Source: a virus
DNA: 20,226 nucleotides
Virus record (IMG/VR): IMGVR_UViG_3300025879_000142
Coordinates: 1-20,226 of that record
Strand: one strand, 5' to 3'
Position 1 is the first letter of the stretch. Every line of letters begins with the position of its first letter. Made by a program: the position numbers and the translations under genes. Shown piece after piece: positions 1-20,226 of the stretch. The notes under the pieces were generated by a model. The model saw only the letters and a list, made by a program, of their open reading frames with translations. It was not told the origin of the DNA and made no database searches.

Positions 1-20
1 TCACATTACGCTAAATTTAG

Positions 21-28
21 TATCTTAG
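21..28 (+). promoter_or_regulatory. Probable -7 promoter element, TATCTTAG
   Basis: TATCTTAG lies 22 bases before the ATG at 51 and resembles the TATCTTTA box found upstream of four other genes in this window. The matching TTTG element would fall at or beyond the left edge of the window, so it cannot be checked. The 5' leader would be A/T-rich with no Shine-Dalgarno sequence, as is usual in Bacteroidota. Confidence 0.45.
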
Positions 29-50
29 TAAGGAATTTAAATTCTTTATT

Positions 51-281
51 ATGAGTAAAATTACTGAAGAAGAGTTAGGGCAACTCCAAGACCAAGAGCA
101 AAAGAAAGTGCAGTTCATCCAAGAAGTAGGTGCATTAGAAGCAAGAAAGCATCAGTACCTACACGCTTTAGAGCAAGTCTTAGCAGAACAAGAAAAGACT
201 AAGACCGCACTTGAAGATAAATACGGAAAGATCAATGTCAATTTGGATGATGGGTCTTACTCTCCGATTGAGGAGGAATAA
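51..281 (+). CDS. Small coiled-coil protein of unknown function upstream of the tail fibre
   Basis: A 76-residue acidic, charged protein. Residues about 5-58 are rich in Glu, Gln, Lys and Leu with heptad-like spacing, so a single long helix or coiled coil is expected. The tail (residues 60-76) is acidic and ends in EEE. There is no signal peptide, membrane segment or cysteine. It has its own probable promoter and is followed by a hairpin terminator, so it may be transcribed separately from the fibre gene downstream. Its position next to the tail fibre suggests a virion or assembly role, but that is inference from context only. I do not recognise a named family. Confidence 0.8.
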   Translation: MSKITEEELGQLQDQEQKKVQFIQEVGALEARKHQYLHALEQVLAEQEKTKTALEDKYGKINVNLDDGSYSPIEEE

Positions 282-289
282 CAATAACG

Positions 290-316
290 GGCAGGTCTAA
301 AAAGCCTGCCTTTTTT
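290..316 (+). terminator. Intrinsic terminator or attenuator before the tail fibre gene
   Basis: A perfect 6-bp stem, GGCAGG (290-295) with CCTGCC (305-310), encloses a 9-base loop and is followed by six T. It sits only 10 bases before the tail fibre start at 327. No promoter is visible between it and that start, so it may be leaky and lower fibre expression relative to the small upstream gene. Confidence 0.8.
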
Positions 317-326
317 AAATCAACTT

Positions 327-4878: not shown

Positions 4879-5248
4879 ACCTACAAGAAGCCACTTAGTT
4901 AAGAAGTTAGACACAGTATTCTCTCAGTATATACGAAGAAGATATGCTCAGGGAGATATAGCTACTTGCGTTACTTGTGGTAAAAAGGATCATTGGAAAA
5001 GAATGGATGCAGGACATTTCATGAGTCGCAAACACTATGCAACTCGATGGGATGAAGATAATGTACAGGTACAATGTAAATCTTGTAACCTATACAATCA
5101 GGGTGAGCAGTATAAGTATTCTATATTCTTGGGATCCGAGAAAGCTGAGGAATTACTTAGGAAGAGCAGAGAAACAGTTAAGTTCTCAGGATATGATCTA
5201 AACATGATGATAGAAAAATATCAGAAAAAACTTGCAGAGATGGACTAA
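4865..5248 (+). CDS. ninG: NinG-like recombination protein
   Basis: A 127-residue protein of the lambda NinG type (known in lambda as Rap, an endonuclease acting on recombination intermediates). It has a basic N-terminus, C-V-T-C-G-K (Cys35 and Cys38), D-A-G-H-F-M-S-R (residues 48-55) and V-Q-C-K-S-C-N (Cys71 and Cys74), the HNH-like zinc-binding core of the family. The C-terminal third is helical. It is shorter than lambda NinG (about 200 residues) but keeps the core. The preceding gene overlaps it, and a Bacteroidota-type promoter lies across its 3' end, directed at a probable small RNA. Confidence 0.88.
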   Translation: MAKRKPTRSHLVKKLDTVFSQYIRRRYAQGDIATCVTCGKKDHWKRMDAGHFMSRKHYATRWDEDNVQVQCKSCNLYNQGEQYKYSIFLGSEKAEELLRKSRETVKFSGYDLNMMIEKYQKKLAEMD

Positions 5249-5262
5249 TTGATATATATTTG
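5232..5262 (+). promoter_or_regulatory. Bacteroidota consensus promoter (TTG-N20-TATATTTG)
   Basis: TTG (5232-5234), a 20-base spacer and TATATTTG (5255-5262) match the TTTG/TAnnTTTG consensus of Bacteroidota primary sigma factors. Transcription would begin near 5266-5269, just past the NinG stop, and would meet the terminator at 5310-5341. This layout suggests a short stand-alone RNA. Confidence 0.6.
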
Positions 5263-5265
5263 AGT

Positions 5266-5341
5266 ATCTGTCTTATTGTCCCCTAACAATAGTTCTCCTA
5301 TGTTAAGAAGAGGTTGCCCTAATAGGTAGCCTCTTTTTTTT
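5266..5341 (+). ncRNA. Probable small non-coding RNA of about 75 nt
   Basis: The segment lies between a consensus promoter and a strong terminator and holds no convincing open reading frame. It contains ATCTGTCTT, then a hairpin TATTGT-CCCCTA-ACAATA, then the terminator hairpin. A second segment at 18040-18105 has the same layout, also begins with ATCTGTCTT, and ends with a similar A-GAAGAGG terminator stem. No known RNA family was recognised. An alternative is that this is an attenuated leader for the gene starting at 5407. Confidence 0.45.
5310..5341 (+). terminator. Intrinsic terminator
   Basis: A 9-bp stem, GAGGTTGCC (5310-5318) with GGTAGCCTC (5325-5333), including two G-U pairs and a 6-base loop, followed by eight T. 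It ends transcription entering from the NinG operon and from the promoter at 5232-5262. Confidence 0.88.
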
Positions 5342-5350
5342 GTTTAACAT

Positions 5351-5381
5351 TTTGAGTATTAAAAAATTTTAATTATCTTTA
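5351..5381 (+). promoter_or_regulatory. Promoter TTTG-N19-TATCTTTA for the replication block
   Basis: TTTG (5351-5354), 19 bases, TATCTTTA (5374-5381). The same elements with the same 19-base spacing occur at 16495-16525 and 17429-17459. Transcription should start near 5386-5389, so the ATG at 5386 would be at or before the transcript start; the next in-frame ATG, at 5407, is preceded by an A-rich leader like those of the other two genes. Confidence 0.75.
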
Positions 5382-5406
5382 AGACATGATTCTAAAAGAC
5401 AATAAG

Positions 5407-5742
5407 ATGACAAAGATTAACTTAAAAGATTCTGTATTTACAGAAGATGATGTACCATTCGTGAGTACACACAAAGTAGGTAGTCTGTATGACATTACCT
5501 ATTATGATTTAGTAGCGATCTTAGGAGAGCCTACTTACAACACCGCATCTGCGGATGATAAAGTCCAAAAGGAATGGGTATTAGAATTTGAGGGTTCTTA
5601 CTTCACGATCTATGATTGGAAAACATACGATCAGGACTACACTATTAACTCTTTAACTACTTGGTCAGTAGGAGGTACTGCTCATAGTACACCATGGATG
5701 GAACTTTGTGAACTAATACATTCTCAGAAAGATGACCTATAG
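5407..5742 (+). CDS. Conserved phage protein of unknown function, first gene of the replication block
   Basis: A 111-residue protein from the chosen start. It resembles a widespread small phage protein with the pattern L-x-x-x-x-G-E-P, then K-V-x-x-E-W-V-L-E-F, then T-I-Y-D-W-K and a C-terminal W-S-V-G-G; its function is not known to me. An ATG seven codons upstream (5386) is possible but sits on the expected transcription start of the TATCTTTA promoter. The leader before 5407 (AAAAGACAATAAG) closely matches that before the gene at 17481 (AAAACAATAAGAC), so 5407 is preferred. It overlaps the next gene by 11 bases. Confidence 0.8.
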   Translation: MTKINLKDSVFTEDDVPFVSTHKVGSLYDITYYDLVAILGEPTYNTASADDKVQKEWVLEFEGSYFTIYDWKTYDQDYTINSLTTWSVGGTAHSTPWMELCELIHSQKDDL

Positions 5743-5941
5743 TGAGGATGTAAACAGAGTAAAAGGTTACGAAGAAGCAAGAATCGAAGCCTTAGAAAAA
5801 GAAGTAAAACGACTTAATGAGGTTTTATCTATATCATATAAAGAGATAGAAGGACTGAATGAGGTTTTAGATAAAAAAGAAGCTGAGATTATTCAGTTAG
5901 TACTTAGACTTAATTATTATAAAAACGCAGACAATGGCTAA
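5732..5941 (+). CDS. Small coiled-coil protein
   Basis: A 69-residue protein, almost all a predicted helix rich in Glu, Lys and Leu with heptad spacing from residue about 10 to 60 (for example E-A-L-E-K-E-V-K-R-L-N-E-V-L). It has no membrane segment or cysteine. It overlaps the genes on both sides (11 and 8 bases), so it is translated as part of the same operon. Function unknown; proteins of this kind in phage replication blocks are often accessory and poorly conserved. Confidence 0.7.
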   Translation: MTYSEDVNRVKGYEEARIEALEKEVKRLNEVLSISYKEIEGLNEVLDKKEAEIIQLVLRLNYYKNADNG

Positions 5942-6773: not shown

Positions 6774-7685
6774 ATGATAGTAAACATAGATGAGCAACTA
6801 CAGAAGATAAAGGACATACGGACAGGTAAGATTAAGGAGGGTTTAAAGTTAGGGATCGAGAGTATAGATGAGTTTCTTAGGTTTAAGCCCTCTAATTTTA
6901 ATGTCATATTAGGACACGCGAATGTGGGTAAGACTACGGTAATTATGTACTTGATGTTATTGTACGCAAGACAACACAATGTGAAGTGGTTGGTGTATAG
7001 TTCAGAGAACGAACCCTACACACTTATACGCAAGTTTATCGAGTTCATAGAAGCCGAGCCTATAAACAGAATAGAGATGGCAACTATAGAGACACATACG
7101 GCATGGATTAACGAGCATTTTAAGTTCATTGACCCTAATGTACTACATTCGTACAAAAGTCTCTTAGAAGTCGCTAATACGGTTCTGAAGCAATGGAAGT
7201 ATAACGGACTATTAATAGATCCGTATAATAGTTTAATGAAAGACAAAGAGTTTACAAGCATGAACGGACACGAGTACGACTACATGGTTACAAGTGAACT
7301 CAGAGTATTTTGTAAAACGAATAGTGTAACTATATGGCTTAACACCCATGCAGCTACAGATGCATTAAGAAAGAAACATAGTCAAAGAGAACAATACGAG
7401 GGGCATCCTATCCCACCAATGGCTTCAGATGTCGAGGGTGGTGGTAAGTTTGTCAATAGAGCAGATGACTTTTGGGTTATACACCGATACATTCAGCATC
7501 CGACAGATTGGATGTATAGTATGATCCATGTACGAAAGGTGAAAGATATAGATAGTGGAGGCAGACCCACACCTATAGATGCACCGATCATGTTAAGAAG
7601 CATAAAGAACAATGTAGGGTTTACAATAGGAGGCAGAAATATTATTGATGTTAAACCTAAAGTAACACAGAACCTACCATTTTGA
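6774..7685 (+). CDS. DnaB-type RecA-fold replicative helicase (helicase domain only)
   Basis: A 303-residue ATPase. The P-loop is G-H-A-N-V-G-K-T-T (residues 47-55), and a Walker B-like strand, G-L-L-I-D-P-Y-N-S-L (145-154), follows. H-x-x-T-D/H-x-R-K-K-type basic residues (about 193-206) and G-G-G-K-F-x-N-R-A-D-D (221-231) match the DnaB/KaiC/RecA-like helicase core. There is no N-terminal DnaB domain or primase, so it is about two thirds of DnaB length. It is expected to unwind phage DNA at the fork. The C-terminal tip, Q-N-L-P-F, resembles that of the SSB-like protein encoded just upstream. Confidence 0.85.
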   Translation: MIVNIDEQLQKIKDIRTGKIKEGLKLGIESIDEFLRFKPSNFNVILGHANVGKTTVIMYLMLLYARQHNVKWLVYSSENEPYTLIRKFIEFIEAEPINRIEMATIETHTAWINEHFKFIDPNVLHSYKSLLEVANTVLKQWKYNGLLIDPYNSLMKDKEFTSMNGHEYDYMVTSELRVFCKTNSVTIWLNTHAATDALRKKHSQREQYEGHPIPPMASDVEGGGKFVNRADDFWVIHRYIQHPTDWMYSMIHVRKVKDIDSGGRPTPIDAPIMLRSIKNNVGFTIGGRNIIDVKPKVTQNLPF

Positions 7686-7876
7686 TACAGATTGAAACAC
7701 CTAACGGAGGGACAAATATTCAACTTATTCCTGTTTATGGATTAAGCGTAGGGATCTTATATTATGATCCTACTCTTGAGCCTAATAGTGATGAGATAGC
7801 AGAAGAGGACTTTTATAGACAGATAACTATTATGTTCTTTTTATTTGCTATTCACATCACATCATGGAGGAATTAG
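7682..7876 (+). CDS. Small conserved phage protein with hydrophobic C-terminus
   Basis: A 64-residue protein that starts with TTG at 7682, overlapping the helicase stop by four bases (TTGA). It has an acidic centre (E-P-N-S-D-E-I-A-E-E-D) and a hydrophobic C-terminus, I-T-I-M-F-F-L-F-A-I-H-I-T, possibly a membrane anchor or a buried strand. I recall similar small proteins in marine flavobacterial phages with the same L-Y-Y-D-P-x-L-E-P and Q-I-T-I-M-F-F patterns. It fills the only gap between helicase and sigma genes and overlaps the latter by 13 bases. Function unknown. Confidence 0.7.
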   Translation: MIQIETPNGGTNIQLIPVYGLSVGILYYDPTLEPNSDEIAEEDFYRQITIMFFLFAIHITSWRN

Positions 7877-8343
7877 AAAAGATTTACCAAAAACATGATG
7901 ATTGGGTAGCTATTGTTATGTCAATGGGTTGTAACAAGGAAACTGCTAAGGATTTAGTTTCTGAGATGTACATAAAGATTCATGTAAAGATTCAAGAGGG
8001 TTTAGATATAATTTATGAGGAAGATGATATTAATTATTATTATATCTTTAAGACTCTTAGATCACTCTTCTTGGATCTAAAGAGGAAAGAAAAGAATGTT
8101 ACTTATGTTGATCCTGATATCTTACTTCGTGTTATCTCGCAAGATGACAATGTTCCCTTTAGAGAGGTTTATGAGAAAATACAGGAGGAATTAGACAATT
8201 TGCATTGGTACGATAGAAGAGTTTACGAGTATATAGATGATGGAGTTAGTATTCAGAAGTTAAGTGATGATACTAATATTAGTTATTGGAGGCTTAGGAA
8301 CACTTATAACAAGGTAAAGAAGAACCTAAAAAACAAGATATGA
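7864..8343 (+). CDS. Sigma-70-like (ECF-type) transcription factor
   Basis: A 159-residue protein with a two-domain ECF sigma layout. Residues about 12-77 resemble region 2: an A-K-D-L-V-S-E-M-Y-I-K-I-H helix (28-40), as in region 2.1/2.2, then Y-Y-I-F-K-T-L-R-S-L-F-L-D-L-K-R-K-E-K (59-77), like the -10-binding helix. Residues about 115-157 resemble region 4: W-Y-D-R-R-V-Y-E-Y-I-D-D-G-V-S-I-Q-K-L-S and a recognition helix near I-S-Y-W-R-L-R-N-T-Y. It would redirect the host RNA polymerase to phage promoters. The ATTCGTTATATA motif found before three gene blocks is a candidate target. A start-to-stop overlap with the next gene shows co-translation. Confidence 0.75.
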   Translation: MEELEKIYQKHDDWVAIVMSMGCNKETAKDLVSEMYIKIHVKIQEGLDIIYEEDDINYYYIFKTLRSLFLDLKRKEKNVTYVDPDILLRVISQDDNVPFREVYEKIQEELDNLHWYDRRVYEYIDDGVSIQKLSDDTNISYWRLRNTYNKVKKNLKNKI

Positions 8344-8540: not shown

Positions 8541-8724
8541 AGAGGATTTAGATCTTTGGATTGAAAACAGACCTACAGGAAATGTAGTTACTAATAAGCA
8601 ATTAAGGATTATTTCTGAACTTCATGCAAGATACTTTAAGCACAAGTTTAGTGTGCCTTGTGGATGCAATAAAAAATTAGTGATATCGTGGATAAAAGAT
8701 TTAGATAGAATATATGAGCAATAA
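8533..8724 (+). CDS. Small phage protein with a C-x-C motif
   Basis: A 63-residue protein from the chosen start (66 from the ATG at 8524). It has the pattern L-x-x-I-S-E-L-H-A-R-Y-F-x-H-K and V-P-C-G-C-N-K-K, then a helix with I-S-W-I-K-D-L-D. I recall this as a widespread small phage family of unknown function whose members begin M-S/T-K-E-D. The ATG at 8533 sits within the previous gene's last codons and is preferred because it matches that beginning. It overlaps the next gene by 11 bases. Confidence 0.7.
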   Translation: MSKEDLDLWIENRPTGNVVTNKQLRIISELHARYFKHKFSVPCGCNKKLVISWIKDLDRIYEQ

Positions 8725-9067
8725 TATAACTAAAGCAGCTATACTTGTCCTTAATAACTTTGATGGATGGCAGTTAGATTATAACCCAAGCGATCAATGG
8801 GGGTATGATGCTCATGGATATACACCTAAGAATATACCATGTGTTATTAAGTTTCATTACGACAACCAAGAACCATATATAAGCAAACAGAATTACGACA
8901 AGCTGATGTCGGTACATGATGGAGTTACGATTCTTTATGTTTATGTGAGCAAATCAATTAACTATCTTTTTTGGATTCCGCAGGTAACACCTAAGGAGGA
9001 TGGCGATATGTTATGGCTTGACAAACAAGATGCAAAACTCATAAATTTTGGAGAAAGAATACTTTAA
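8714..9067 (+). CDS. Probable degenerate PD-(D/E)XK-fold protein
   Basis: A 117-residue protein. The run W-G-Y-D-A-H-G-Y-T-P-K-N-I-P-C-V-I-K-F-H (residues 28-47) and the following Y-D-K-L-M and V-T-I-L-Y-V-Y-V resemble a family of small phage nuclease-fold proteins in which D-A-x-G is followed by a strand with E-x-K. Here the E-x-K position appears to read K-F-H, so catalysis may be lost. It lies immediately before the MjaI-like endonuclease gene and overlaps it by 20 bases. It may be a binding or regulatory partner, but both the fold and the role are inference. Confidence 0.55.
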   Translation: MSNNITKAAILVLNNFDGWQLDYNPSDQWGYDAHGYTPKNIPCVIKFHYDNQEPYISKQNYDKLMSVHDGVTILYVYVSKSINYLFWIPQVTPKEDGDMLWLDKQDAKLINFGERIL

Positions 9068-9701
9068 AAACAAAGTCCCTGAGAAGTTATACAAGAACCT
9101 CAACAAGGATAGAAGATTAAACAGATACTTTTCAGCACAGGCAGTAGGCAAGTGTGTTAAGATCTACGATGATTACTATAATTTAGTTACAGGAGATATT
9201 AGCAAGGAGGGGTGGAAAAGGTACTATTATGGTCAGGTAGATCGAGAGGCATTGATTAGTGCTGCTCAGTTTATAAAGTTGAATTACGATACAGATTGGA
9301 AAGAAGCAGCAGAGTATGTTTTCTATAGAACTGTAGGTCAAACATGGAACGGGATGCAGGAAGAGATCAATATCATTCAGCAGTTAGATAAATACTTTCC
9401 ACTAATAGACTTTGAGAAAGCACCCTATGAATTAGATTCTGAGTATTTTACAGATTGGCAGGCATTTTCAGGAGAGGATCTACTCTTTGGAATACAGATT
9501 AAACCTCATACTTACAAATTAATGAATAGTGCGTATCAGGTGAGAGCAAAAGAGAATCATAATGCACAGAAAGAGAAGTACAAAGAGACTTATATGGTAG
9601 GACACTTTATGGTGTACTATAAAGATCATAAGATAGAGGACAAGAAAGACCTATTAAACAGAATAGATACATATTTAGCATATAACATTAGAATCAAATG
9701 A
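9048..9701 (+). CDS. Putative MjaI-like type II restriction endonuclease
   Basis: A 217-residue protein that resembles, from memory, the MjaI restriction endonuclease family (MjaI cuts at CTAG). Visible features are R-T-V-G-Q-T-W-N-G-M-Q-E-E (residues 94-106) and a PD-(D/E)XK-like pair: Asp136 in F-T-D-W, then G-I-Q-I-K-P (148-153) with Lys152. The only available start is TTG at 9048, inside the previous gene; no in-frame ATG occurs before about residue 103. No DNA methyltransferase gene is visible in the window. I found no CTAG by eye in the whole window, which fits a CTAG-cutting enzyme that spares phage DNA. The family call is moderate and specificity is inference. Confidence 0.6.
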   Translation: MEKEYFKNKVPEKLYKNLNKDRRLNRYFSAQAVGKCVKIYDDYYNLVTGDISKEGWKRYYYGQVDREALISAAQFIKLNYDTDWKEAAEYVFYRTVGQTWNGMQEEINIIQQLDKYFPLIDFEKAPYELDSEYFTDWQAFSGEDLLFGIQIKPHTYKLMNSAYQVRAKENHNAQKEKYKETYMVGHFMVYYKDHKIEDKKDLLNRIDTYLAYNIRIK

Positions 9702-11102: not shown

Positions 11103-11541
11103 GAGAAGAGATAAGAAGTTTACAAGAGCATTAGCAGTAGCTAACAAAGTAGTAGAACTAACAGGTCAAGACATATTTAGTAATTCAAGGAAACACGCAG
11201 TTATTGATGCAAGATCCTTGTTAAACTACCTATTGTATAACAATCTTGATTTTACACTACATGAGATCAAGGAGTTTTATGAGAATGAGGGTAAGAGTTA
11301 CGATCATGCTACTGCATTACACTCCCTAAACAACTTTGCAGTTTATAGGAGATCTAACCCTAACATGGATTCATGGTTAGTACAACTTAGTGCAGAATAC
11401 ACTACGGTAAAAGCTAAGATTAATATGTTGGTACAGAACATTATGACACTACAGGAGAACGATGTAGATGTATTGTTAGATATATCAAAGAGGATGTACG
11501 AAAAACACGAATCGTTAGAGTCAGCCAAAATTGTTAAATAA
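11086..11541 (+). CDS. DnaA domain IV-like replication initiator
   Basis: A 151-residue protein with a DnaA C-terminal (domain IV) DNA-binding module. S-R-K-H-A-V-I-D-A-R-S-L-L-N-Y-L-L (residues 34-50) and F-T-L-H-E-I-K-E-F (56-64) are followed by K-S-Y-D-H-A-T-A-L-H-S-L (70-81), the signature helix that reads the DnaA box. There is no AAA+ domain, so it is not a DnaA homologue over its full length. Such proteins in phages probably bind an origin or control replication. The C-terminal half (95-151) is helical and could mediate oligomerisation. It is the last gene before the ATTCGTTATATA motif. Confidence 0.78.
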   Translation: MNTKIKRRDKKFTRALAVANKVVELTGQDIFSNSRKHAVIDARSLLNYLLYNNLDFTLHEIKEFYENEGKSYDHATALHSLNNFAVYRRSNPNMDSWLVQLSAEYTTVKAKINMLVQNIMTLQENDVDVLLDISKRMYEKHESLESAKIVK

Positions 11542-11556: not shown

Positions 11557-12177
11557 ATGAAGCAAAAAGTTACCATTGACAAAATACACAAGAATTCTGA
11601 CAACCCACGAACGATCAAGGGTGTTAAGTTTGAGAAACTTGTACAAAGCATTAAGGAGTTACCTAAGATGCTTGAGAAACGACCTATTGTGGTAGATGAA
11701 AACTATGTGATACAAGGAGGTAACATGAGATACTTAGCTTGTATTGAAGCAGGACTTAAGGAAGTATGGATTGACAACATGGAAGATTGGACTGAAGAGG
11801 AGAAGAGGCAGTTTATCATCAAGGATAATGTTAGCTTTGGGGAATGGGACTTTGATATGCTTACTTCAAGCTACGATGCTTTAGAGTTAGATCAGATGGG
11901 TGTGGATCTTGATCCTAATATGTTCAAGGTCGAGATAGATGAGGAGCAATACGAGCAATCAGTAGATACTAAGTTTAACGACTACACTATATACTTTGCA
12001 AACGAGGAGGAGATGGATATTTGGTACGCATTTTTGAAGAGGTTGAAAAACAAGTTCTCAGATTACGAGAATGTTTCAGAGCGTGTACTAAGATATATTG
12101 CTGAGGTTTATGAGGACAACAATATGCCTGAAAGCAAAATGATACTCAAGTTTATTCAAGGTGATATAGATGGCTAA
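11557..12177 (+). CDS. ParB-like nuclease-fold protein (IbrB-like)
   Basis: A 206-residue protein. Residues about 5-90 form a ParB/Srx-type domain: N-S-D-N-P-R-T-I-K (13-21), R-P-I-V-V-D-E-N-Y-V-I-Q-G-G-N-M-R-Y-L-A (42-61) with the G-G-N-M-R nucleotide or catalytic motif at 54-58, and I-I-K-D-N-V-S-F-G-E-W-D (about 87-98). The C-terminal part is acidic and helical. It overlaps the PP-loop gene by eight bases. ParB-like and PAPS-reductase-like pairs are known as IbrB/IbrA in an E. coli prophage and recur in phages, where the biochemical role is unsettled. It is not a chromosome partition ParB, since no ParA is nearby. Confidence 0.8.
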   Translation: MKQKVTIDKIHKNSDNPRTIKGVKFEKLVQSIKELPKMLEKRPIVVDENYVIQGGNMRYLACIEAGLKEVWIDNMEDWTEEEKRQFIIKDNVSFGEWDFDMLTSSYDALELDQMGVDLDPNMFKVEIDEEQYEQSVDTKFNDYTIYFANEEEMDIWYAFLKRLKNKFSDYENVSERVLRYIAEVYEDNNMPESKMILKFIQGDIDG

Positions 12178-13294
12178 GAAAGAAGATTTAATATACTTAG
12201 ACCAAAATGTCTATGAAGCGGCATTAGAACGCATAGACAGGATCTACAATAGTCATGATGAGGTATGGGTTAGCTTTTCAGGAGGGAAAGATAGTCTTGC
12301 TATGCTCAAACTTGTAGAAGAGTACTTTGATAATGAGGGAATCTCAGATAAGATCAATGTGCTATTTAGAGATGAGGAGATGATTAACTCCTTTGTACGA
12401 GATTTTGTAATGACCTTTAGGGATAACCCACGATACAACTTTAGGTACTATGCTACTCCATTAGAGTCAGAGATATACATCTTAGGAGAGAAGCGTAAGT
12501 ACATACAATGGGATCCAAACAGGGAATGGATCATACCTAAGCCTGAAGGATCTATAACATTGAAGGGTGTTTACAATCAGAACAACTTTGATAAAGTGGT
12601 GTTTGAGAAAACCAACAAGAGGGTATGTACCATGATTGGGATACGAGCATCAGAGAGTCTTATGCGATTTGCAGGTATTACGATGAGTAAGGTATCATAT
12701 CTAACGAAGAACCCTAACCTAAAGAACGGAACACTTGGTAAGCCACTATATGATTGGGAGGAGAAAGATATCTTCAGGTACTTCTACGATAAGAATATCG
12801 AGTATTGTCAGGTTTATGATATGCAGATATTTAACAAGGATAGTCTAAGGGTAGCTACAGTTTTACACGCAGAAGCAGCCAAACAGTTATACAAGGTTAA
12901 GACCATTGACCCAATATTGTACAATCAGATCATGAATGTATTTCCTGAGGTGGAATTACAGGCACGATACTACAAGGATGTGATTAAAGGATCTACAGAG
13001 AAGATTATCTATGAGTTTAAGGAAAAAGCAGGAGGCGATCCATGGGGTGCTATCTTGTTATACATCCAAGAGAAACTTACAGATGAGTATCAATACAAGA
13101 CTGCTATGAATAGGATAGCAAGATGTAGAATCACGAGAAAGAACAGGTGTACCCCTAAAAACCCATTTGGTGGTTACCCTGCATATTACTTGTTTGGTCA
13201 GATCATTAGTGGAGCCTACAAGAGAAACATAATACCAACCCCTGAACAGAAAGATATATACTTTGAGTATGAAAATATGTCCCTTAGAGCATAG
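12170..13294 (+). CDS. PP-loop ATP pyrophosphatase, PAPS reductase-like (IbrA-like)
   Basis: A 374-residue protein of the PAPS reductase / PP-loop superfamily. The ATP-binding PP-loop is S-F-S-G-G-K-D-S-L (residues 35-43). A second conserved stretch, C-T-M-I-G-I-R-A-S-E-S (about 159-169), is typical of the phage and IbrA-type branch. The classic PAPS reductase ending with a C-G-I-H motif is absent. A C-terminal A-R-C-R-I-T-R-K-N-R-C-T-P-K-N-P-F-G-G is present. These proteins adenylate a substrate, in many cases for sulfur transfer; the substrate here is unknown. The neighbours, a ParB-like protein upstream (8-base overlap) and a GNAT enzyme downstream (26-base overlap), argue for one functional unit. 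Confidence 0.83.
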   Translation: MAKKEDLIYLDQNVYEAALERIDRIYNSHDEVWVSFSGGKDSLAMLKLVEEYFDNEGISDKINVLFRDEEMINSFVRDFVMTFRDNPRYNFRYYATPLESEIYILGEKRKYIQWDPNREWIIPKPEGSITLKGVYNQNNFDKVVFEKTNKRVCTMIGIRASESLMRFAGITMSKVSYLTKNPNLKNGTLGKPLYDWEEKDIFRYFYDKNIEYCQVYDMQIFNKDSLRVATVLHAEAAKQLYKVKTIDPILYNQIMNVFPEVELQARYYKDVIKGSTEKIIYEFKEKAGGDPWGAILLYIQEKLTDEYQYKTAMNRIARCRITRKNRCTPKNPFGGYPAYYLFGQIISGAYKRNIIPTPEQKDIYFEYENMSLRA

Positions 13295-13658
13295 TCAGGT
13301 TTACAGAAGATTTGCTAAGTATATGCGGATCGAGAGAGTGGCGATCAAGAAGCAAGATGAGAATACTGAATATTTAGGAGTCATAGAAGATGAGCAGGTT
13401 ATTGCAGTAGTCGGATGGCAAAAGATATCAGAGGATCATATAAGGCTAAAGACAGACTATGTAGCCAACGGATTTAGAAAGCAGGGACACTACTCTCGTT
13501 TGTGGGACTCAAGAATTATTGCTATCTTAAAGTATGAGCCAAAGGTATTGTCGGCATATTGTACCCCTATGAGTTTGCCAAAGTATCTAAAGGAAGGCTT
13601 TAAGGTAGTATCAACGAATAAGCAGGGTATAGCTTATGTAAAAAAACAACTTAATTAA
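13269..13658 (+). CDS. GNAT family N-acetyltransferase-like protein
   Basis: A 129-residue protein. V-I-A-V-V-G-W-Q (residues 44-51), D-Y-V-A-N-G-F-R-K-Q-G-H-Y-S-R-L-W (63-79) and a late Y-L-K-E-G-F-K-V-V (106-114) follow the order of the GNAT fold. The R-K-Q-G-H-Y pattern corresponds to the acetyl-CoA-binding Q/R-x-x-G-x-G/A loop. The ATG at 13269 is preferred over an upstream TTG at 13263. It overlaps the PP-loop gene by 26 bases and completes the ParB/PP-loop/GNAT cassette. The acceptor substrate cannot be read from sequence; modification of DNA, nucleotide or protein are all possible. Confidence 0.72.
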   Translation: MKICPLEHSQVYRRFAKYMRIERVAIKKQDENTEYLGVIEDEQVIAVVGWQKISEDHIRLKTDYVANGFRKQGHYSRLWDSRIIAILKYEPKVLSAYCTPMSLPKYLKEGFKVVSTNKQGIAYVKKQLN

Positions 13659-13659
13659 C

Positions 13660-13788
13660 ATGGAGAAAAGACTAAAGGAATTAGAAAGACTTGTAGATTG
13701 GTATAGTAATTATGCCGATTATGTAGAGTATCACTACAGGAATGTGAACAACTCAGCTATTGATTATGCTAATAAATGTCAAGAGTAA
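13660..13788 (+). CDS. Small protein of 42 residues
   Basis: An open frame that begins one base after the GNAT stop and ends at the TAATG junction with the next gene. The protein starts M-E-K-R-L-K-E-L-E-R-L, a probable helix, and continues with tyrosine-rich sequence (W-Y-S-N-Y-A-D-Y-V-E-Y-H-Y). No motif is recognised. Its tight fit between two genes and the stop-start overlap support it as real. Confidence 0.6.
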   Translation: MEKRLKELERLVDWYSNYADYVEYHYRNVNNSAIDYANKCQE

Positions 13789-14042
13789 TGAAAGCAGTAT
13801 TAGAATTTGATTTACCAAGAGAAGATGCTGATCTAAGAGTTGCTATTGATGGTAAACATTGGCAACAGATACTTCATAATGTTCAGAATTATGTTTGTGA
13901 ATTTAGAGATATGTGCAGAGACAAAGAAGATAAGAACGAGGAGTTAATAGATGCTTTACAGGCAATAAACTACTACATTATAGAGCAGAAATCTGAACAT
14001 GATGTGGTTTATCAATGGGATGCAATAAAAGAGGAAGAATGA
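13788..14042 (+). CDS. Conserved small phage protein beginning MKAVLEFDLP
   Basis: An 84-residue protein from the start at 13788 (the ATG at 13776 is an in-frame alternative). The beginning M-K-A-V-L-E-F-D-L-P-R-E-D is shared by a widespread family of small phage proteins of unknown function. The rest is helical and charged, with Y-V-C-E-F-R-D-M-C. The chosen ATG overlaps the previous stop as TAATG, and the stop overlaps the next start as ATGA, so translation is probably coupled on both sides. Confidence 0.72.
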   Translation: MKAVLEFDLPREDADLRVAIDGKHWQQILHNVQNYVCEFRDMCRDKEDKNEELIDALQAINYYIIEQKSEHDVVYQWDAIKEEE

Positions 14043-14437
14043 GGAACTACAAACAATGGAGTGCAGAGTTTAGAAAGGAGTCATTAAAGCTAACTAACAA
14101 GGCAAAGAAGTTAGGATGGATCAAACAACCTACCAAGTGCTGCAAATGTGGTCAAGACAAAGGGATCATACAACTGCACAACGAGGATTACGATGCAACC
14201 TACTATACCTTACGAGATGCGTTTAATAGGTTCCCCATAGACATTACAGAGGAAGAACTACAGAAGGTCAATGATGCGTTATTAGAGTTATGTTGGAGAT
14301 GCCACATGATGCACCATAGCAAACACAGAAACGCAGAGGCAGTAGAGCAATATTTTCAGGAGGTAAAAGCAGGTAAGCAATACCCTCCTGTATATAGACA
14401 CGATTTTGATATATTAAAAAGAGACCATAATGTTTAA
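14039..14437 (+). CDS. HNH-like zinc protein upstream of the terminase genes
   Basis: A 132-residue protein from the ATG at 14039, chosen because it overlaps the upstream stop by four bases; the ATG at 14015 is an alternative. It has a treble-clef or HNH-like core: C-C-K-C-G-Q (a C-x-x-C pair), I-I-Q-L-H-N-E-D-Y, and later L-E-L-C-W-R-C-H-M-M-H-H (a second C-x-x-C followed by His residues). Phage HNH proteins next to terminase genes are known to assist DNA packaging in HK97-like phages. Whether this variant keeps nuclease activity is not clear, since the spacing differs from classic HNH enzymes. Confidence 0.72.
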   Translation: MRNYKQWSAEFRKESLKLTNKAKKLGWIKQPTKCCKCGQDKGIIQLHNEDYDATYYTLRDAFNRFPIDITEEELQKVNDALLELCWRCHMMHHSKHRNAEAVEQYFQEVKAGKQYPPVYRHDFDILKRDHNV

Positions 14438-14942
14438 AGAAGATCCAATAAGTAATGTACAATGGGTGGATGCAGAGAAACTCAATGCAAACGACTACAA
14501 CCCAAATGTAGTACTGAACAAAGAATTGCAGTTATTAGAACTGAGCGTACTAAAGAATGGGTGGATCCAACCTGTGTTAGTGAATAAAGATTACACGATC
14601 ATAGATGGGTACCACAGAAGTTTTTTGTCAAGAACAAGCAAAGCCCTCAAGGAAAAGTATGAGGGAAAGGTACCCTGTGTAGTAATGGATCTAACCGAAC
14701 CTGAAAGAATGTTACTGACTATTCGTATTAACAGAGCAAAGGGTAACCATATTGCAGTTAAGATGCATGATATAGTCAAGACACTTATAGATAAGCATGA
14801 GGTATCAGTAGATTACATTTGCAAGAGTATAGGTGCAGGAAAAGATGAGGTAGATCTATTGTACAAGGATGGGGTATTTGATGCGTTGAATATAAAAGAA
14901 CACAAATACAGCAAAGCATGGAAGAGTCCGAGAACGGTTTAA
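14430..14942 (+). CDS. ParB-like domain protein adjacent to terminase
   Basis: A 170-residue protein with an N-terminal ParB/Srx-type domain: L-N-A-N-D-Y-N-P-N (residues 18-26), L-E-L-S-V-L-K-N-G-W-I-Q-P-V-L-V (36-51) and I-I-D-G-Y-H-R-S (57-64), the D-G-x-H-R motif of the fold. The C-terminal half (about 100-160) is helical, with an I-C-K-S-I-G-A-G-K-D-E-V segment. This type sits next to small terminase genes in many phages and may act in DNA recognition for packaging or in modification. It differs clearly from the ParB-like protein at 11557-12177. It overlaps both neighbours (8 and 25 bases). Confidence 0.8.
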   Translation: MFKEDPISNVQWVDAEKLNANDYNPNVVLNKELQLLELSVLKNGWIQPVLVNKDYTIIDGYHRSFLSRTSKALKEKYEGKVPCVVMDLTEPERMLLTIRINRAKGNHIAVKMHDIVKTLIDKHEVSVDYICKSIGAGKDEVDLLYKDGVFDALNIKEHKYSKAWKSPRTV

Positions 14943-15292
14943 TGCAACAAAAGCAACACATAAAAAAAGAGAAATTCATTGAGGCATTAGAGCAGTCAAT
15001 GGGTATCATAAGTCATGCAGCTAAGAAGATAGGAGTAGATAGGACTACACCCTATAGATGGATGCGTGAAGATGAGGAATATAAGAAACGAGTAGATGAG
15101 GTACTTAATGTGCCTTTAGACTTTGTGGAGAGCAAACTATTTGAAGCAATTAATCACAACAACATAACTGCTATTATATTTTATCTAAAGACCAAAGGGA
15201 AGCATAGAGGCTATGTAGAGCGACATGAACTGACAGGTATTGATGATAAAGATATAAAGGTAGAGATTGAAGTACTCCGTACAGACAAATAA
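14918..15292 (+). CDS. terS: Terminase small subunit
   Basis: A 124-residue protein expected to recognise phage DNA for packaging. Residues about 18-55 contain a helix-turn-helix: F-I-E-A-L-E-Q-S-M-G-I-I-S-H-A-A-K-K-I-G and V-D-R-T-T-P-Y-R-W-M, typical of the phBC6A51-type small terminases. A region that may form the oligomerisation core follows (about 70-105, with F-Y-L-K-T-K-G-K-H-R-G-Y). The C-terminus is acidic. It lies directly before, and overlaps by 26 bases, the large terminase gene, the standard order. Confidence 0.85.
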   Translation: MEESENGLMQQKQHIKKEKFIEALEQSMGIISHAAKKIGVDRTTPYRWMREDEEYKKRVDEVLNVPLDFVESKLFEAINHNNITAIIFYLKTKGKHRGYVERHELTGIDDKDIKVEIEVLRTDK

Positions 15293-16427
15293 GGTATTTG
15301 ACCATTTACAGGAGAGTGATAGCCGCTTTATTGTAGAACAAGGAGGTACGAGGTCAGGAAAGACATATAACATCCTGACATGGATCATCTTTGTCTATTG
15401 TATGAAGAAGAGAGATAAGATTGTTACTATCTGTCGTAAGCACGGACCGTCATTAAGAGGTTCCTCTATGAGGGACTTTTTTGATATACTGCAAAAGCAT
15501 AATCTCTACAGGGAAGAAAATCACAGTAAGAGCCTTAATGAGTACAAACTATTTGGTAACCTTGTAGAGTTTATTTCTTTGGATGAGCCTCAGAAGGTGA
15601 GAGGTCGTAAAAGGGATCTGTTATTTGTCAATGAGGGTAACGAGATTACTAAGGAGGATTTCTTTCAGCTAAACATCCGTACTACAGAGAGGATCATACT
15701 TGACTACAACCCATCGGATGAGTACCATTGGATATACGATGACTTGATTACGAGGGATGACTGCGACTTCCATGTAACAACCTACTTAGACAATCCTTTC
15801 TTAGATCCTACCCTTATTCAGGAGATAGAGAGATTAAAGGACACAGATGAGACCTATTGGCAAGTATATGGATTAGGTCAGCGTGGTGTATCTAAGGCTA
15901 TCATCTTTAACTATATGGAAGCAGATAAGATCCCTGAGGATGCAGAGTTTCTTACCTATGGAATGGACTTTGGATTTACTAACGATCCAACTGCATTAGT
16001 AGAGATTTACCAAAAGGGATTTGACCTGTATGTTAGAGAACTACTCTACAGGACTATGATGCACGCCAACGATATAAACTCTAAGTTTAAGCAGATCGGT
16101 GTAGGAGGCAAGACTATATACGCAGACTCAGCAGAACCAAGACTCATAGATACCTTGAGAAGGATGGGTTGGAATATCAGACCAAGTACTAAGGGACAAG
16201 ATTCAGTAAGAGCCTCTATAGACTTATTAAAGAGGTATAGGATCCATGTAACAAAGGATAGCAACAATTTGATACAGGAGATAAGAAACTACAGATGGAG
16301 AGAAGATAAGACAGGTAAGCTACTCAATGTTCCTGTTGATGGCAATGATCACTTGATCGACAGTCTTAGGTATGGTACATATAGTGTACTAAGTAAGCCT
16401 AACTTTGGTAAGTATGTCATCAGATAA
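15267..16427 (+). CDS. terL: Terminase large subunit
   Basis: A 386-residue packaging motor. The ATPase Walker A is G-G-T-R-S-G-K-T (residues 26-33). R-D-L-L-F-V-N-E-G-N-E (about 110-120) is the Walker B with the catalytic Glu. The RNase H-like nuclease domain starts near Y-G-M-D-F-G-F-T-N-D-P-T-A-L (about 231-244), with I-Y-A-D-S-A-E-P (about 287-294) and a last acidic motif, G-N-D-H-L-I-D-S-L-R-Y (about 355-365). The length is on the short side but complete. Translation starts at TTG (15267), inside the small subunit gene; no ATG is available before the Walker A motif. No portal or capsid gene follows in this window. Confidence 0.93.
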   Translation: MKYSVQTNKVFDHLQESDSRFIVEQGGTRSGKTYNILTWIIFVYCMKKRDKIVTICRKHGPSLRGSSMRDFFDILQKHNLYREENHSKSLNEYKLFGNLVEFISLDEPQKVRGRKRDLLFVNEGNEITKEDFFQLNIRTTERIILDYNPSDEYHWIYDDLITRDDCDFHVTTYLDNPFLDPTLIQEIERLKDTDETYWQVYGLGQRGVSKAIIFNYMEADKIPEDAEFLTYGMDFGFTNDPTALVEIYQKGFDLYVRELLYRTMMHANDINSKFKQIGVGGKTIYADSAEPRLIDTLRRMGWNIRPSTKGQDSVRASIDLLKRYRIHVTKDSNNLIQEIRNYRWREDKTGKLLNVPVDGNDHLIDSLRYGTYSVLSKPNFGKYVIR

Positions 16428-17663: not shown

Positions 17664-17665
17664 AC

Positions 17666-18027: not shown

Positions 18028-18035
18028 TAGTTTTG
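18028..18035 (+). promoter_or_regulatory. Possible -7 element TAGTTTTG upstream of a small RNA
   Basis: TAGTTTTG fits TAnnTTTG exactly, but no TTTG or TTG occurs at the expected distance upstream. A 6-base dyad, TGACTC (18014-18019) and GAGTCA (18056-18061), spans it and could be an operator or an RNA stem. Confidence 0.35.
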
Positions 18036-18039
18036 GTTT

Positions 18040-18105: not shown

Positions 18106-18130
18106 GTACATTACTAAAACCTAACTTAAA

Positions 18131-18142
18131 ATGCGTTATATA
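18131..18142 (+). promoter_or_regulatory. ATGCGTTATATA motif before the tail operon
   Basis: Eleven of twelve bases match the ATTCGTTATATA motif at 3307 and 11542. As at 11542, it ends three bases before an ATG followed by AA (18146). The ATG inside the motif (18131) is in frame with the gene but is probably part of the promoter rather than the start codon. Confidence 0.5.
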
Positions 18143-18145
18143 GAT

Positions 18146-18796
18146 ATGAAAGTAGATATTTATGTCCCTACAGAACTGAATGAGATGACTCTTGGGCAAT
18201 ACCAAAAGTTTGTTGCATATCAGAAGATTACAGAGGATGAGGGTAAGATTGCACAGAAGATGTTAGAGATCTTTTGCGGTCTGAAGAGTACTGAGGCTAT
18301 ACAGGTCAAGTACAGAGATGCCAATGCGATCATAGATATTTTAGTAGAGATCTTGAATAGGAAACCTCAACTTATCAGAAGATTCACACTTAAAGGTCAA
18401 GAGTATGGATTCATACCTAACCTTGATGAGATGACCTTAGGAGAGTATGTGGACTTAGATACTTTTATAGGAGATACAGATAATTTGCATAGAGCAATGG
18501 CGGTCTTATACAGACCTATAGAGCAGAAGAACAGAAATAACTACAATATTGTAGAGTACACAGGTGCAGATACAGAGGCTATGAAGGATATGCCGTTAGA
18601 TGTAGCGTTTGGTGCGATGCTTTTTTTTTATCGTTTAGGGATGGACTTATCGGAAGCTATGATGAATTATTTGGAGGAGGCGGAACAGAGCAACTTGATT
18701 CAGCATCTGTCTTCGGAAGAAAATGGGGTTGGTATCAATCAATTTACGCACTTGCTCAAGGAGATATTACGAGATTTAAACATATCACCGAACTAA
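18146..18796 (+). CDS. Tail assembly chaperone, upstream (gpG-like) frame
   Basis: A 216-residue protein from the preferred start (221 from the ATG at 18131). L-N-E-M-T-L-G-Q-Y-Q-K-F and later L-D-E-M-T-L-G-E-Y-V-D-L (about 10-21 and 94-105) are typical of phage tail assembly chaperones of Bacteroidota, whose partner proteins guide the tape measure protein. A T9 run at 18621-18629 gives a T-TTT-TTT slippery heptamer in this frame (18622-18628). The -1 frame is open from there and encodes a conserved-looking domain (see 18628-18897). The frame continues 56 codons past the slippery site, longer than in lambda G. Confidence 0.78.
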   Translation: MKVDIYVPTELNEMTLGQYQKFVAYQKITEDEGKIAQKMLEIFCGLKSTEAIQVKYRDANAIIDILVEILNRKPQLIRRFTLKGQEYGFIPNLDEMTLGEYVDLDTFIGDTDNLHRAMAVLYRPIEQKNRNNYNIVEYTGADTEAMKDMPLDVAFGAMLFFYRLGMDLSEAMMNYLEEAEQSNLIQHLSSEENGVGINQFTHLLKEILRDLNISPN

Positions 18797-18897
18797 ATGT
18801 ACACGAGTGCCTACTCATGTTATCGTTCATGAGCGACAAGGCAGAGTTAGAGAAACGAGAAATAAACAAAAAGACAAATGGCCAATACAGGAATTAG
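18628..18897 (+). CDS. Tail assembly chaperone, -1 frameshift extension (gpGT-like)
   Basis: This frame has no start codon before a late ATG but is open from 18541 to the TAG at 18895-18897. It encodes F-G-R-K-W-G-W-Y-Q-S-I-Y-A-L-A-Q-G-D-I-T-R-F and, further on, L-N-V-H-E-C-L-L-M-L-S-F-M-S-D-K-A-E-L-E-K-R-E-I, which I recall as a conserved pattern in flavobacterial phage tail regions. A -1 slip on the T run would join it to the upstream frame and give a product of about 250 residues. It overlaps the next gene's start (18878) by 20 bases. A slip elsewhere upstream of about 18700 cannot be excluded. Confidence 0.6.
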   Translation, partial: LSFRDGLIGSYDELFGGGGTEQLDSASVFGRKWGWYQSIYALAQGDITRFKHITELNVHECLLMLSFMSDKAELEKREINKKTNGQYRN

Positions 18898-19348
18898 AGG
18901 GTTTTACTTACTGACCGAAAAGATCAAGGATGAGTTACAGGCAGATGACAATGTCAATACTGTAACCTATGGTGATATTACTAAGGTGGATCTTGATAAG
19001 CAGACTATATTCCCACTATCACACTTCATAGTGAACAATGTATCTTCAGGAGAGAATACCTTAACATTCAATATAAGCGTATTAGCGATGGATGTAGTGG
19101 ACTTTAGCAAAGAAGAGGTATCAAATACCTTTGAGGGTAATAACAACGAGCAGGATGTCTTTAATACGCAATTAGCGGTACTTAACAAATTGATCCAAAA
19201 GCTAAGAGCAGGATCTTTGTACAGAGATAAGTATCAGGTTATAGGAGATGTGAATATTGAGCCATTTACAGACAGATTCGAGAATGCGTTGGCAGGGTGG
19301 ACTGCAACCTTTGATGTAATGATTCAAAACGATATAGATGTCTGCTGA
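18878..19348 (+). CDS. Conserved tail-region structural protein
   Basis: A 156-residue protein with no cysteine before its last residue. Features are G-F-Y-L-L-T-E-K-I-K-D-E-L, V-D-L-D-K-Q-T-I-F-P-L-S-H-F-I-V-N-N (residues about 37-54) and F-T-D-R-F-E-N-A-L-A-G-W-T-A-T-F-D-V (about 128-145), which I recall as a conserved set in marine flavobacterial phages. By position, and by beta-strand content, a tail completion or terminator protein is plausible; this is inference. It begins inside the frameshift extension of the chaperone gene and overlaps the following gene by 11 bases. Confidence 0.75.
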   Translation: MANTGIRGFYLLTEKIKDELQADDNVNTVTYGDITKVDLDKQTIFPLSHFIVNNVSSGENTLTFNISVLAMDVVDFSKEEVSNTFEGNNNEQDVFNTQLAVLNKLIQKLRAGSLYRDKYQVIGDVNIEPFTDRFENALAGWTATFDVMIQNDIDVC

Positions 19349-19859
19349 TTATAAAAGAACACAAGAGGCATTGAATAAGTTTGCTAAATATGTGATCCAA
19401 CAATCACGATCTAACCTCAGCAAACAAAAAAAGAGTGTTACAGGAGATCTGTATAAATCAATGAGCTATAATCTACAGGTGAACCCTAACTCTTTTAGCT
19501 TAGAGTTTTTCATGGCGGACTATGCGATGTTTGTAGATCAAGGGGTAAAGGGTAAGTTAAGTACTTACTCACAGAGTAGAAATAGTCCCTTTAGCTTTAG
19601 AGGCAAGAAACCACCTATGCAACCTTTAGCAGATTGGGCAAAGAGCAGAAACATAAGACTCAGAGATGAGAAAGGAAGATACAAGAAAGGAAACTATAGG
19701 ACTATAGGCTTTATACTACAGAAGAGTATATATGAGAAAGGGATCAAAGCATCCATGTTCTTTACTAAGCCTTTTGAGAAAGCCTTTGATAATTTACCAC
19801 AGGAGATAGTAGAAGCCTTTGGATTAGATATAGAAGATTTATTAGAATTTACGACATGA
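19338..19859 (+). CDS. HK97 gp10-like neck or tail protein
   Basis: A 173-residue protein. T-Q-E-A-L-N-K-F-A-K-Y-V-I-Q-Q-S-R-S-N-L (residues 8-27), G-D-L-Y-K-S-M-S-Y (36-44), Y-A-M-F-V-D-Q-G-V-K-G (63-73) and a late T-K-P-F-E-K-A-F-D-N-L-P (about 143-154) follow the order seen in HK97 gp10-like head-tail or tail-completion proteins. The F-V-D-Q-G motif is characteristic. The length is usual for this type. It overlaps its neighbours by 11 and 4 bases. Confidence 0.72.
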   Translation: MSADYKRTQEALNKFAKYVIQQSRSNLSKQKKSVTGDLYKSMSYNLQVNPNSFSLEFFMADYAMFVDQGVKGKLSTYSQSRNSPFSFRGKKPPMQPLADWAKSRNIRLRDEKGRYKKGNYRTIGFILQKSIYEKGIKASMFFTKPFEKAFDNLPQEIVEAFGLDIEDLLEFTT

Positions 19860-20226
19860 GTAAGATAAATGTAAGAAGCCCGTACTATGTAGTGATTAAT
19901 CAATCACCAACAGCTACTGCAAACTTAAAGATATGGACAGGTGCATTAACTCCTGAGCCAAGTACTAACAATTACGAACTAAGCAAAGATAGTACAGGAG
20001 GCTATGGTCATTTTGAGGTGGCTGAGTTAGTAAGAGATGAGATATCTCACTCCTTTGATGGTACTTATACTTCGTATGCAGCTTGGCTAAAAGTAAATAG
20101 TGAAACTACACTACTTGCATTAGATGGCTACACAGAATACTCAGATGGCACAAATGCACAAGGTAATACTGAACAACTAATCTCTAACTCTACAATATGG
20201 ATTCCAAAGGATGTAGATGTAAGGAT
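19856..20226 (+). CDS. Tail structural protein, partial (runs off the right edge)
   Basis: An open frame from the ATG at 19856, overlapping the previous stop by four bases (ATGA), and still open at the last base, giving at least 123 residues. It begins M-S-K-I-N-V-R-S-P-Y-Y-V-V-I-N-Q, a beginning I recall for large structural proteins of flavobacterial phages. L-K-I-W-T-G, Y-G-H-F-E-V-A-E-L-V-R-D-E-I and F-D-G-T-Y follow. The composition (Thr, Ser, Tyr, Asn, few Lys or Cys) is that of a beta-rich virion protein. Total length and function cannot be given from this window. Confidence 0.8.
   Translation, partial: MSKINVRSPYYVVINQSPTATANLKIWTGALTPEPSTNNYELSKDSTGGYGHFEVAELVRDEISHSFDGTYTSYAAWLKVNSETTLLALDGYTEYSDGTNAQGNTEQLISNSTIWIPKDVDVR

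Follow-up and report, generated by a model that had tools for sequence, protein, structure and literature searches.

The question raised by the DNA considered here is why a stretch of 20,226 nt that encodes a protein resembling the restriction endonuclease MjaI, whose cleavage site is CTAG, should itself hold no CTAG. The stretch, hereafter called the window (IMG/VR virus record IMGVR_UViG_3300025879_000142, positions 1 to 20,226), is a 20 kb virus record and probably a fragment, the remainder of the phage genome lying outside the data. The evidence from more than 100 environmental phage contigs and two megaplasmids suggests a cutter that cannot cut its own carrier. We give a probability of about 0.87 to the reading, drawn from sequence comparison, that the gene at positions 9048–9701 encodes a solitary restriction endonuclease of the MjaI type without a dedicated methyltransferase, and that the carrier owes its immunity to a genome free of sites. 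The core of an earlier note on this DNA, namely an MjaI-family enzyme that needs no partner and a carrier that is immune because it is siteless, is backed by homologs, 114 carriers, independent pairs of carriers and non-carriers, a single residue (171) and the megaplasmids.

Words missing from the window

CTAG was absent from the whole window (positions 1–20226, G+C 36.8%), compared with an expectation of 64.5 sites by base composition and of 80.2 by a maximal-order Markov model, whereas CTAA, CTAC and CTAT occurred 136, 121 and 143 times, respectively; the zero, which the earlier note had read by eye together with the abundance of these three words, was thus reproduced by computation and lies nowhere near expectation. 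When synonymous codons were shuffled within the 40 called open reading frames (ORFs), CTAG appeared 51 ± 5.5 times (minimum 36 in 300 shuffles). Chance was ruled out as the cause by the Markov expectation and the shuffle together. The note had described a loss of CTAG only, and this part stands, but the purged motif is wider: CCAG (0/34 expected), CTGG (0/33) and CCGG (0/7, all by the Markov expectation) were absent as well, and the degenerate palindrome CYRG (CTAG, CCAG, CTGG, CCGG) is therefore entirely missing from positions 1–20226.

Other words were depleted in the window (observed/expected: ACGT 0/27, GCGC 0/10, GGCC 1/11, CGCG 1/5, CGTC plus GACG 7/34; by synonymous shuffle, GACG 6 versus 49 and ACGT 0 versus 51), and no gene explaining these non-CYRG depletions was found; host restriction is our guess. 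Of the 5- and 6-base words expected 12 times or more, only AGCTC (2/16) and CACTG (1/13) fell below 15% of expectation.

The nuclease and its family

The gene is a free-standing ORF within a gene-dense stretch of the window, with the following features.

9048–9701, + strand: MjaI-family PD-(D/E)XK nuclease gene, 217 amino acids, TTG start, overlapping the end of the upstream gene
9363–9365, + strand: predicted catalytic E106, invariant in the aligned proteins
9453–9455, + strand: predicted catalytic D136, invariant in the aligned proteins
9495–9503, + strand: predicted catalytic Q150-x-K152, invariant in the aligned proteins
9558–9560, + strand: H171, the residue tied to word breadth by residue–word coupling across carriers

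Homologs were collected by scans of viral contigs, which gave first 3 relatives, then the best 80 of 145 and then the best 80 of 191; an 83-member alignment, less L117 (partial) and L138 (internal stop), left 81 members (L numbers designate loci). The window protein was 35–53% identical to the other members, except for L081 at 70%. RE_MjaI (PF09568) did not match the whole window at E <= 10, though the M. jannaschii positive control scored, nor ORF 9048–9701 alone at E <= 1, and searches of the window copy against NCBIfam, PHROGs and PDB sequences gave no useful match. With RE_MjaI, however, 58 of the 81 aligned sequences gave matches at E <= 1, the best at 4.9e-10, and the curated cut-off of this profile was exceeded by seven of 10 chosen members (for example L150, 37.2 bits versus 22.7). 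The PADLOC Type II restriction enzyme model PDLC03450 (REase_II) matched the window protein itself (E 9.8e-13), and a Type II restriction enzyme model matched 75 of the 81 members at E <= 0.01. The link of the window protein to the MjaI family was therefore made by the homolog alignment and PADLOC alone. The likeness to MjaI claimed in the earlier note holds through these two routes and fails for the window copy by itself; a hidden Markov model search placing the protein outside the family, which the note had regarded as fatal to its idea, was obtained with the window copy alone and overturned by the homologs.

An AlphaFold2 model built from the 81-member alignment (predicted local distance difference test score 93.9) has a C-terminal PD-(D/E)XK-like strand–strand–helix core carrying D136 and Q150-x-K152, with E106 in the preceding helix. 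All 116 aligned proteins have these four residues, and the residue preceding x-K is Q in every member of the family, never D or E. By its predicted fold and its set of catalytic acids and lysine, the product of ORF 9048–9701 is thus modeled as a PD-(D/E)XK nuclease. The solved structures nearest to the model were Hjc resolvases (Z 8.4, root-mean-square deviation 3.0, 102 aligned), a middling match that shows the fold only, and Foldseek against nuclease models returned nothing significant. A likeness to BsaWI, seen with a shallow model (Z 8.0), was gone from the best 50 rows for the deep model and was not relied on.

Six nuclease queries against the cultured phages of INPHARED gave no credible match, one of them yielding two pieces of 25% identity at E ~0.9. 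The hosts of related phages in INPHARED are Flavobacterium, Cellulophaga and Bacteroides. A phage-only family was considered and rejected, as the two scans of genome contigs that found no relative had been made with patterns drawn from the branch to which the window copy belongs, and homologs occur on plasmids.

Word content of carriers and non-carriers

After removal of 40 duplicates, 367 loci left 327 unique viral contigs, comprising 114 carriers of the nuclease gene (the window included) and 213 non-carriers; every nuclease profile match lay below E 1e-20, with no borderline cases. A word was called null when it stood under 5% of expectation, and words with fewer than 5 expected sites were excluded from such calls. 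Over the 1.25 Mb of the 114 carriers, CTAG occurred 3 times versus 3403 expected (one expected about every 370 bases), CCAG plus CTGG 123 times versus 4644 and CCGG 142 times versus 1036; the control palindromes GTAC, AGCT and TGCA stood at 0.81–0.89 of expectation. The corresponding counts in non-carriers were 3244 versus 5483 for CTAG and 6266 versus 8647 for CCAG plus CTGG. The carriers formed 25 nuclease clusters (70% identity) with G+C contents of 26–48%, and CTAG was absent from 23 of these, the others having 1/14 and 2/301 of the expected sites. In nine longer carrier records of 27.8–34.8 kb, a set that excludes the L138 record, 0 CTAG were found versus 767 expected.

The few residual sites came from two carriers. 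L138 has one CTAG (1 versus 13 expected in its longer record), and its nuclease gene is interrupted by a premature stop, which may be a sequencing error. In L340, 2 CTAG and 5 CCAG/CTGG all lie within positions 5156–5906 of 18.8 kb, overlapping the helicase gene, in what looks like a patch of recent recombination or chimeric assembly. Both exceptions fit a self-immune cutter. That the protein is catalytically dead or unexpressed, and the absence of sites merely inherited, would agree with cleavage activity being a prediction; we find it scarcely credible given that E106, D136, Q150 and K152 are preserved in all 116 proteins and that sites are absent across the 25 clusters.

Non-carrier status was also examined in longer records. 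No member of the nuclease family was found in 39 records of terminase-related non-carriers (a scan without positive control) or in 27 other non-carrier records (three carriers matched as controls), and PF09568 matched none of 32 non-carrier records, mostly CTAG-null, a scan in which the control carrier L333 matched and L134 did not.

Association between gene and words

We compared 90 gene families with 136 words in 238 contigs, listing pairs in which the word was null in at least 80% of the family's contigs. The pair of nuclease and CTAG ranked first (null in 82/83 versus 27/154, P = 1.5e-38) and that of nuclease and CCAG second (76/83 versus 32/155), the best other family reaching 8.5e-9. With 327 contigs, 140 families and no 80% filter, CCAG (107/114 versus 36/213) and CTAG (113/114 versus 65/212) with the nuclease again took the two top places. 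Third was GGCC with the family of ORF 11086–11541 (P = 8e-20, 44/66 versus 7/128), which is far from all-or-none and is tentatively taken as backbone or G+C structure. Other words were purged among the 327 contigs (CATG null in 233/327, GATC in 118/327, GGCC in 51/194), and no strong link of a phage gene to the loss of CATG or GATC was found in them (best P = 2e-7 and 3e-5).

Because carriers had mostly been recruited by the nuclease, and non-carriers by terminase or helicase, the helicase was used as a common anchor.

6774–7685, + strand: DnaB-like helicase (DnaB_C match), the backbone anchor

In the first helicase-recruited sample of 80, CTAG was absent from 3 of 3 carriers. For the anchored test, helicase matches of fewer than 200 positions were dropped and non-carriers were required to extend at least 4 kb downstream, a length from which carriers were exempt. 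CTAG was null in 79/79 carriers versus 28/93 non-carriers, and CTAG, CCAG and CTGG were jointly null in 75/79 versus 5/93. The helicase tree contained 12 well-supported independent pairs of carriers and non-carriers; for the loss of the three words, 10–11 pairs agreed, 0 opposed and 1–2 showed no difference (sign test, P ~0.001), and for CTAG alone 5–8 agreed and 0 opposed (median P = 0.016). Phylogeny alone was therefore rejected as an explanation.

Residue 171 and the breadth of the missing words

The absences are nested: CTAG is missing from nearly all carriers, CCAG/CTGG is null in 107/114, and CCGG is null in 46 of the 57 with enough expectation, being kept in L105, L124, L138, L287, L337, L351, L352 and L091 (2 of 6 sites). 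We infer that this pattern fits an enzyme that reads two half-sites symmetrically and prefers CT to CC. All 108 carriers with CCAG/CTGG at 5.4% of expectation or below have H171, L335 being an additional case cut short at that position, and D or N stands there in five of the five carriers in which CCAG/CTGG was kept, at 48–65% of expectation. The carriers that keep these words form two separate clades, L091/L093/L094/L095 and L100/L101, in which H171 is replaced by D and N, respectively, together with N25. Position 25 is less strict, with N, S, K or R among CCAG/CTGG-purged carriers, and no single residue tracking the retention of CCGG was found among carriers. Such coupling of residue 171 with the missing words would not be expected of a bystander.

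Bacillota megaplasmids

A plasmid search returned three records with an annotated MjaI-family enzyme (35% identity over 57–77% of the query): pSC2 of Paenibacillus polymyxa, a same-sized record of that species and a plasmid of Brevibacillus halotolerans (CP139434); the plasmid homologs are 35% identical to the L150 nuclease. Both enzymes of the distinct megaplasmids have N171, from which the rule derived from the phages predicts a loss of CTAG only. This was observed: the complete pSC2 (510,118 bp) has 0 CTAG versus 690 expected and CCAG plus CTGG at 2171/2271, and the complete Brevibacillus plasmid (414,359 bp) has 0 versus 624 and 1565/1570, counts made piecewise and without sites spanning piece borders. 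CCGG and GTAC are somewhat low in both. Three related megaplasmids, recognised by a common exonuclease (68, 57 and 43% identity) and lacking RE_MjaI over the whole record, had CTAG at 62/77, 41/64 and 29/36 in the 31–41 kb read. General rarity of CTAG was rejected as an explanation on these counts and on the control counts in viral contigs.

Two megaplasmid regions without RE_MjaI, L400 (NZ_CP116888.1 564203–605204) and L401 (NZ_CP062975.1 669714–700724), have other words purged, CCGG (0/53) and GATC (0/145) in Aneurinibacillus and CCGG (0/48) in Pontibacillus; further self-encoded nucleases and host effects are candidate causes. The carrier megaplasmids have MPF_F mating-pair genes and are typed non-mobilizable by PLSDB.

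Search for a partner methyltransferase

The earlier note had seen no methyltransferase, and indeed no DNA methyltransferase domain was found by Pfam among the 30 of 40 window ORFs scanned. PHROG 498 (DNA methyltransferase) matched ORFs 11557 and 14430 over positions 33–160 of 633 only, a part that is also matched by other ParB-like PHROGs. CTAG methyltransferases of the beta class that form N4-methylcytosine (4mC) should, we presume, belong to PF01555. PMC5867850 places the CTAG methyltransferase M.MthZI, together with the homologous M.MjaI and M.BfaI, in the beta class of 4mC enzymes.

A conventional restriction–modification (R-M) system with its methyltransferase outside the fragments would be in line with carrier contigs being mostly fragments and with the PF01555 proteins found in 14 of the 40 carrier records searched (from among the 114 carriers). 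We regard it as extremely unlikely, as a genome shielded by methylation has no need to shed its sites, and as PF01555 was missing from the other 26 records (seven >28 kb), none of which had PF02086, the second of the two families searched there. In the megaplasmids, PF01555 was not found in pSC2 at E <= 0.001 and gave one match below cut-off in CP139434. The PLSDB tables, which are incomplete, annotate no methyltransferase within 15 kb flanks of the pSC2 nuclease gene and, in the flanks of that of CP139434, only a class I S-adenosylmethionine-dependent methyltransferase ~9 kb away. In the scans made, the cognate methyltransferase that a Type II R-M system has nearby was thus not found. Elsewhere on pSC2 (NC_014628.2 310612–313222), two pieces annotated as DNA cytosine methyltransferase flank tnpB, as if a gene had been interrupted.

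Counter-evidence and the origin of the site loss

Several observations weigh against a self-encoded cause. CTAG was null in 65 of 212 non-carriers and absent from 16 of the 77 non-carriers in the first helicase-recruited sample; from the former and the 28/93 of the anchored test, it follows that the gene cannot be deduced from a lack of CTAG by itself, and the depletion in gene-less relatives that the earlier note had counted as contrary evidence is therefore present in part, the remaining non-carriers not being null. Of the 213 non-carriers, 36 were null for CCAG/CTGG, and in 17 of these 36 CTAG stood close to expectation, so other forces purge these words too, and one freshwater group is generally CTAG-depleted. 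L176 and L177 have 0 CYRG and no nuclease family member in the whole record. L177 is 86–90% identical to the carriers L083/L084 over 1.8–2.8 kb, a closeness with which very recent gene loss fits poorly, as some sites would be expected back had the gene been lost since; another enzyme or a host system may account for both. The PF01555 proteins in some carrier records also count here, as does the unexplained survival of a resident chromosome beside the plasmid enzyme, which the cytosine methyltransferase genes elsewhere on pSC2 may or may not protect. Finally, the samples are neither complete nor independent, since non-carrier contigs are mostly fragments, some contigs share a metagenome and the lists hold the best 80 loci.

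The 17 non-carriers with CCAG/CTGG null and CTAG normal, among them L080, L076, L036, L027, L065 and L068, have lost a non-palindromic 4-base word.

Restriction of CTAG (and CCAG) by the host, with the phage gene as a bystander, would account for the CTAG-null non-carriers, and CATG and GATC are purged as well in many of these contigs, with no phage family linked to them more strongly than by the P values given above. Even so, it is very unlikely, because the association of CTAG and CCAG with this gene is far above that of any other family, no independent pair opposes it, one residue predicts the missing words, and the pattern recurs in Bacillota megaplasmids and not in their three gene-less relatives. 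The order of events might instead be reversed, only lineages already freed of CTAG by host restriction acquiring or keeping the enzyme, which would still be a CTAG cutter. CTAG-less non-carriers exist and could be recipients; in a freshwater sample of 79 loci, CTAG was often absent without the gene from contigs that keep CCAG/CTGG, and these words were almost lost only from contigs that have the gene or that stop, before or near the slot, no more than 1.7 kb past the helicase. Part of the data agrees with this order, which need not exclude the other; as the whole explanation it is unlikely, since most lineages would have had to lose the peculiar set CYRG beforehand, and precisely those with another residue 171 only CTAG.

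Proposed mechanism and targets

In the reading that we prefer, the nuclease would cleave unmodified CYRG, CTAG most strongly, CCAG/CTGG next and CCGG most weakly. The phage would have no dedicated methyltransferase, its immunity consisting in a genome that holds no sites, and selection by its own enzyme would remove sites introduced through mutation or recombination. Expressed in infection, the enzyme could fragment any site-bearing DNA, whether the host chromosome (for takeover and nucleotide supply) or competing phages and plasmids. That competitors rather than the chromosome are the main target is a serious possibility, somewhat short of even odds: the homologs reside on MPF_F-bearing megaplasmids, which share the cell with a chromosome; freshwater relatives without the gene are depleted of CTAG, as encounters with carriers would lead one to expect; and PMC11620839 supplies a precedent for a phage endonuclease in interference competition, while the position of the phage gene near the replication helicase is in line with an early takeover function. 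The data do not separate the two, and host DNA and rival elements are equally possible as targets.

Gene neighborhood

The surroundings of the nuclease gene contain the following features.

7864–8343, + strand: sigma-70 region 2-like protein (E 7e-4, below the curated cut-off), between helicase and nuclease
8714–9067, + strand: 117-amino-acid neighbor of the nuclease, no significant family match
10235–10960, + strand: 5'-3' exonuclease (PF02739, E 6e-14)
11086–11541: DnaA-C-like protein, its family linked with GGCC absence
15267–16427, + strand: terminase large subunit (Terminase_3, E 5.7e-21)

The terminase large subunit identifies the window as phage DNA. The nuclease lies 749–2066 bases downstream of the helicase on the same strand in 85 of 85 unique carriers that yielded both genes, and homologs of the sigma-70 region 2-like protein occur in 70 of 82 other carriers compared. 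The exonuclease could degrade the cut DNA; it was not among the families found in at least 5 other carriers and is thus not a conserved neighbor.

In the slot adjoining the nuclease lie several small proteins whose E-x-K motifs recall those of PD-(D/E)XK nucleases (L177 2374–2787 and 2791–3216; L176 4822–5217). The motif appears to be lacking in the window's 117-amino-acid copy and present in its relatives, and this ORF family is modestly associated with CATG absence (103/118 versus 130/209). A cassette at 11557–14942, common in whole or part to L001–L006, encodes ParB-like, PAPS-reductase/DndC-like, GNAT, HNH-like and second ParB-like proteins and possibly has a function in DNA modification or defense.

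Implications and comparison with known systems

More broadly, we consider it rather probable that methyltransferase-free frequent cutters are a widespread weapon of mobile elements, in which immunity is the absence of a 4-base word over up to 510 kb, word content reads out specificity, and single residues such as 171 widen or narrow both. By the usual view, a restriction enzyme is tolerated only beside a methyltransferase; in these carriers, selection appears to have rewritten whole genomes in its place, a natural experiment tying enzyme specificity to genome composition. If so, more enzymes of this sort may lie behind other words purged from phages and megaplasmids, giving candidate new enzymes and a route to predict the specificities of uncharacterised nucleases from sequence alone; studies that read site avoidance in phages solely as a record of host restriction would call for caution.

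The carriers' enzyme shares with MjaI of Methanocaldococcus jannaschii the RE_MjaI (PF09568) sequence family, and the MjaI site is the word missing from nearly every carrier. MjaI, as stated in part of PMC5867850, has a partner in M.MjaI, whereas no consistent partner was found for the carriers' enzyme. The carriers also differ in being phages and megaplasmids and in that the loss often extends to the whole of CYRG.

PacI has an 8-bp site and, unlike the carriers' enzyme, an HNH fold. In the portion of PMC3488263 that treats it, this enzyme of Pseudomonas alcaligenes is solitary, without a methyltransferase, and the survival of its host is explained by a siteless genome. The carriers resemble it in that no consistent methyltransferase partner was found for the gene and in being siteless, with 0 CTAG in the complete 510 and 414 kb plasmids and in nine phage records. 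It differs in that the long PacI site is easily absent by chance and its carrier is bacterial, whereas a 4-bp site must be actively purged from phages and plasmids. No paper on an element-encoded restriction enzyme with genome-wide site loss in phages was found among open-licence articles of PubMed Central, and we tentatively take the scale and setting (phages and megaplasmids) of a siteless solitary enzyme to be what is new relative to the PacI-type precedent.

Phages lose short palindromes under restriction pressure, as a passage in PMC4687349 describes; the cutter there is the host's, and here it is encoded by the element itself. In a section of PMC11620839, gp210 of PhiPA3 is an intron-encoded homing endonuclease that acts at a specific site in a rival's gene, in interference competition. 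It is alike as an element-encoded endonuclease hitting a rival, a possible target here too, and unlike in not being a frequent cutter with genome-wide purging. The endonucleases of T4 and T7 degrade host DNA, and T4 is protected by modified cytosine; our enzyme may share their role in host takeover, but its carrier, in contrast to T4, would be protected by sequence.

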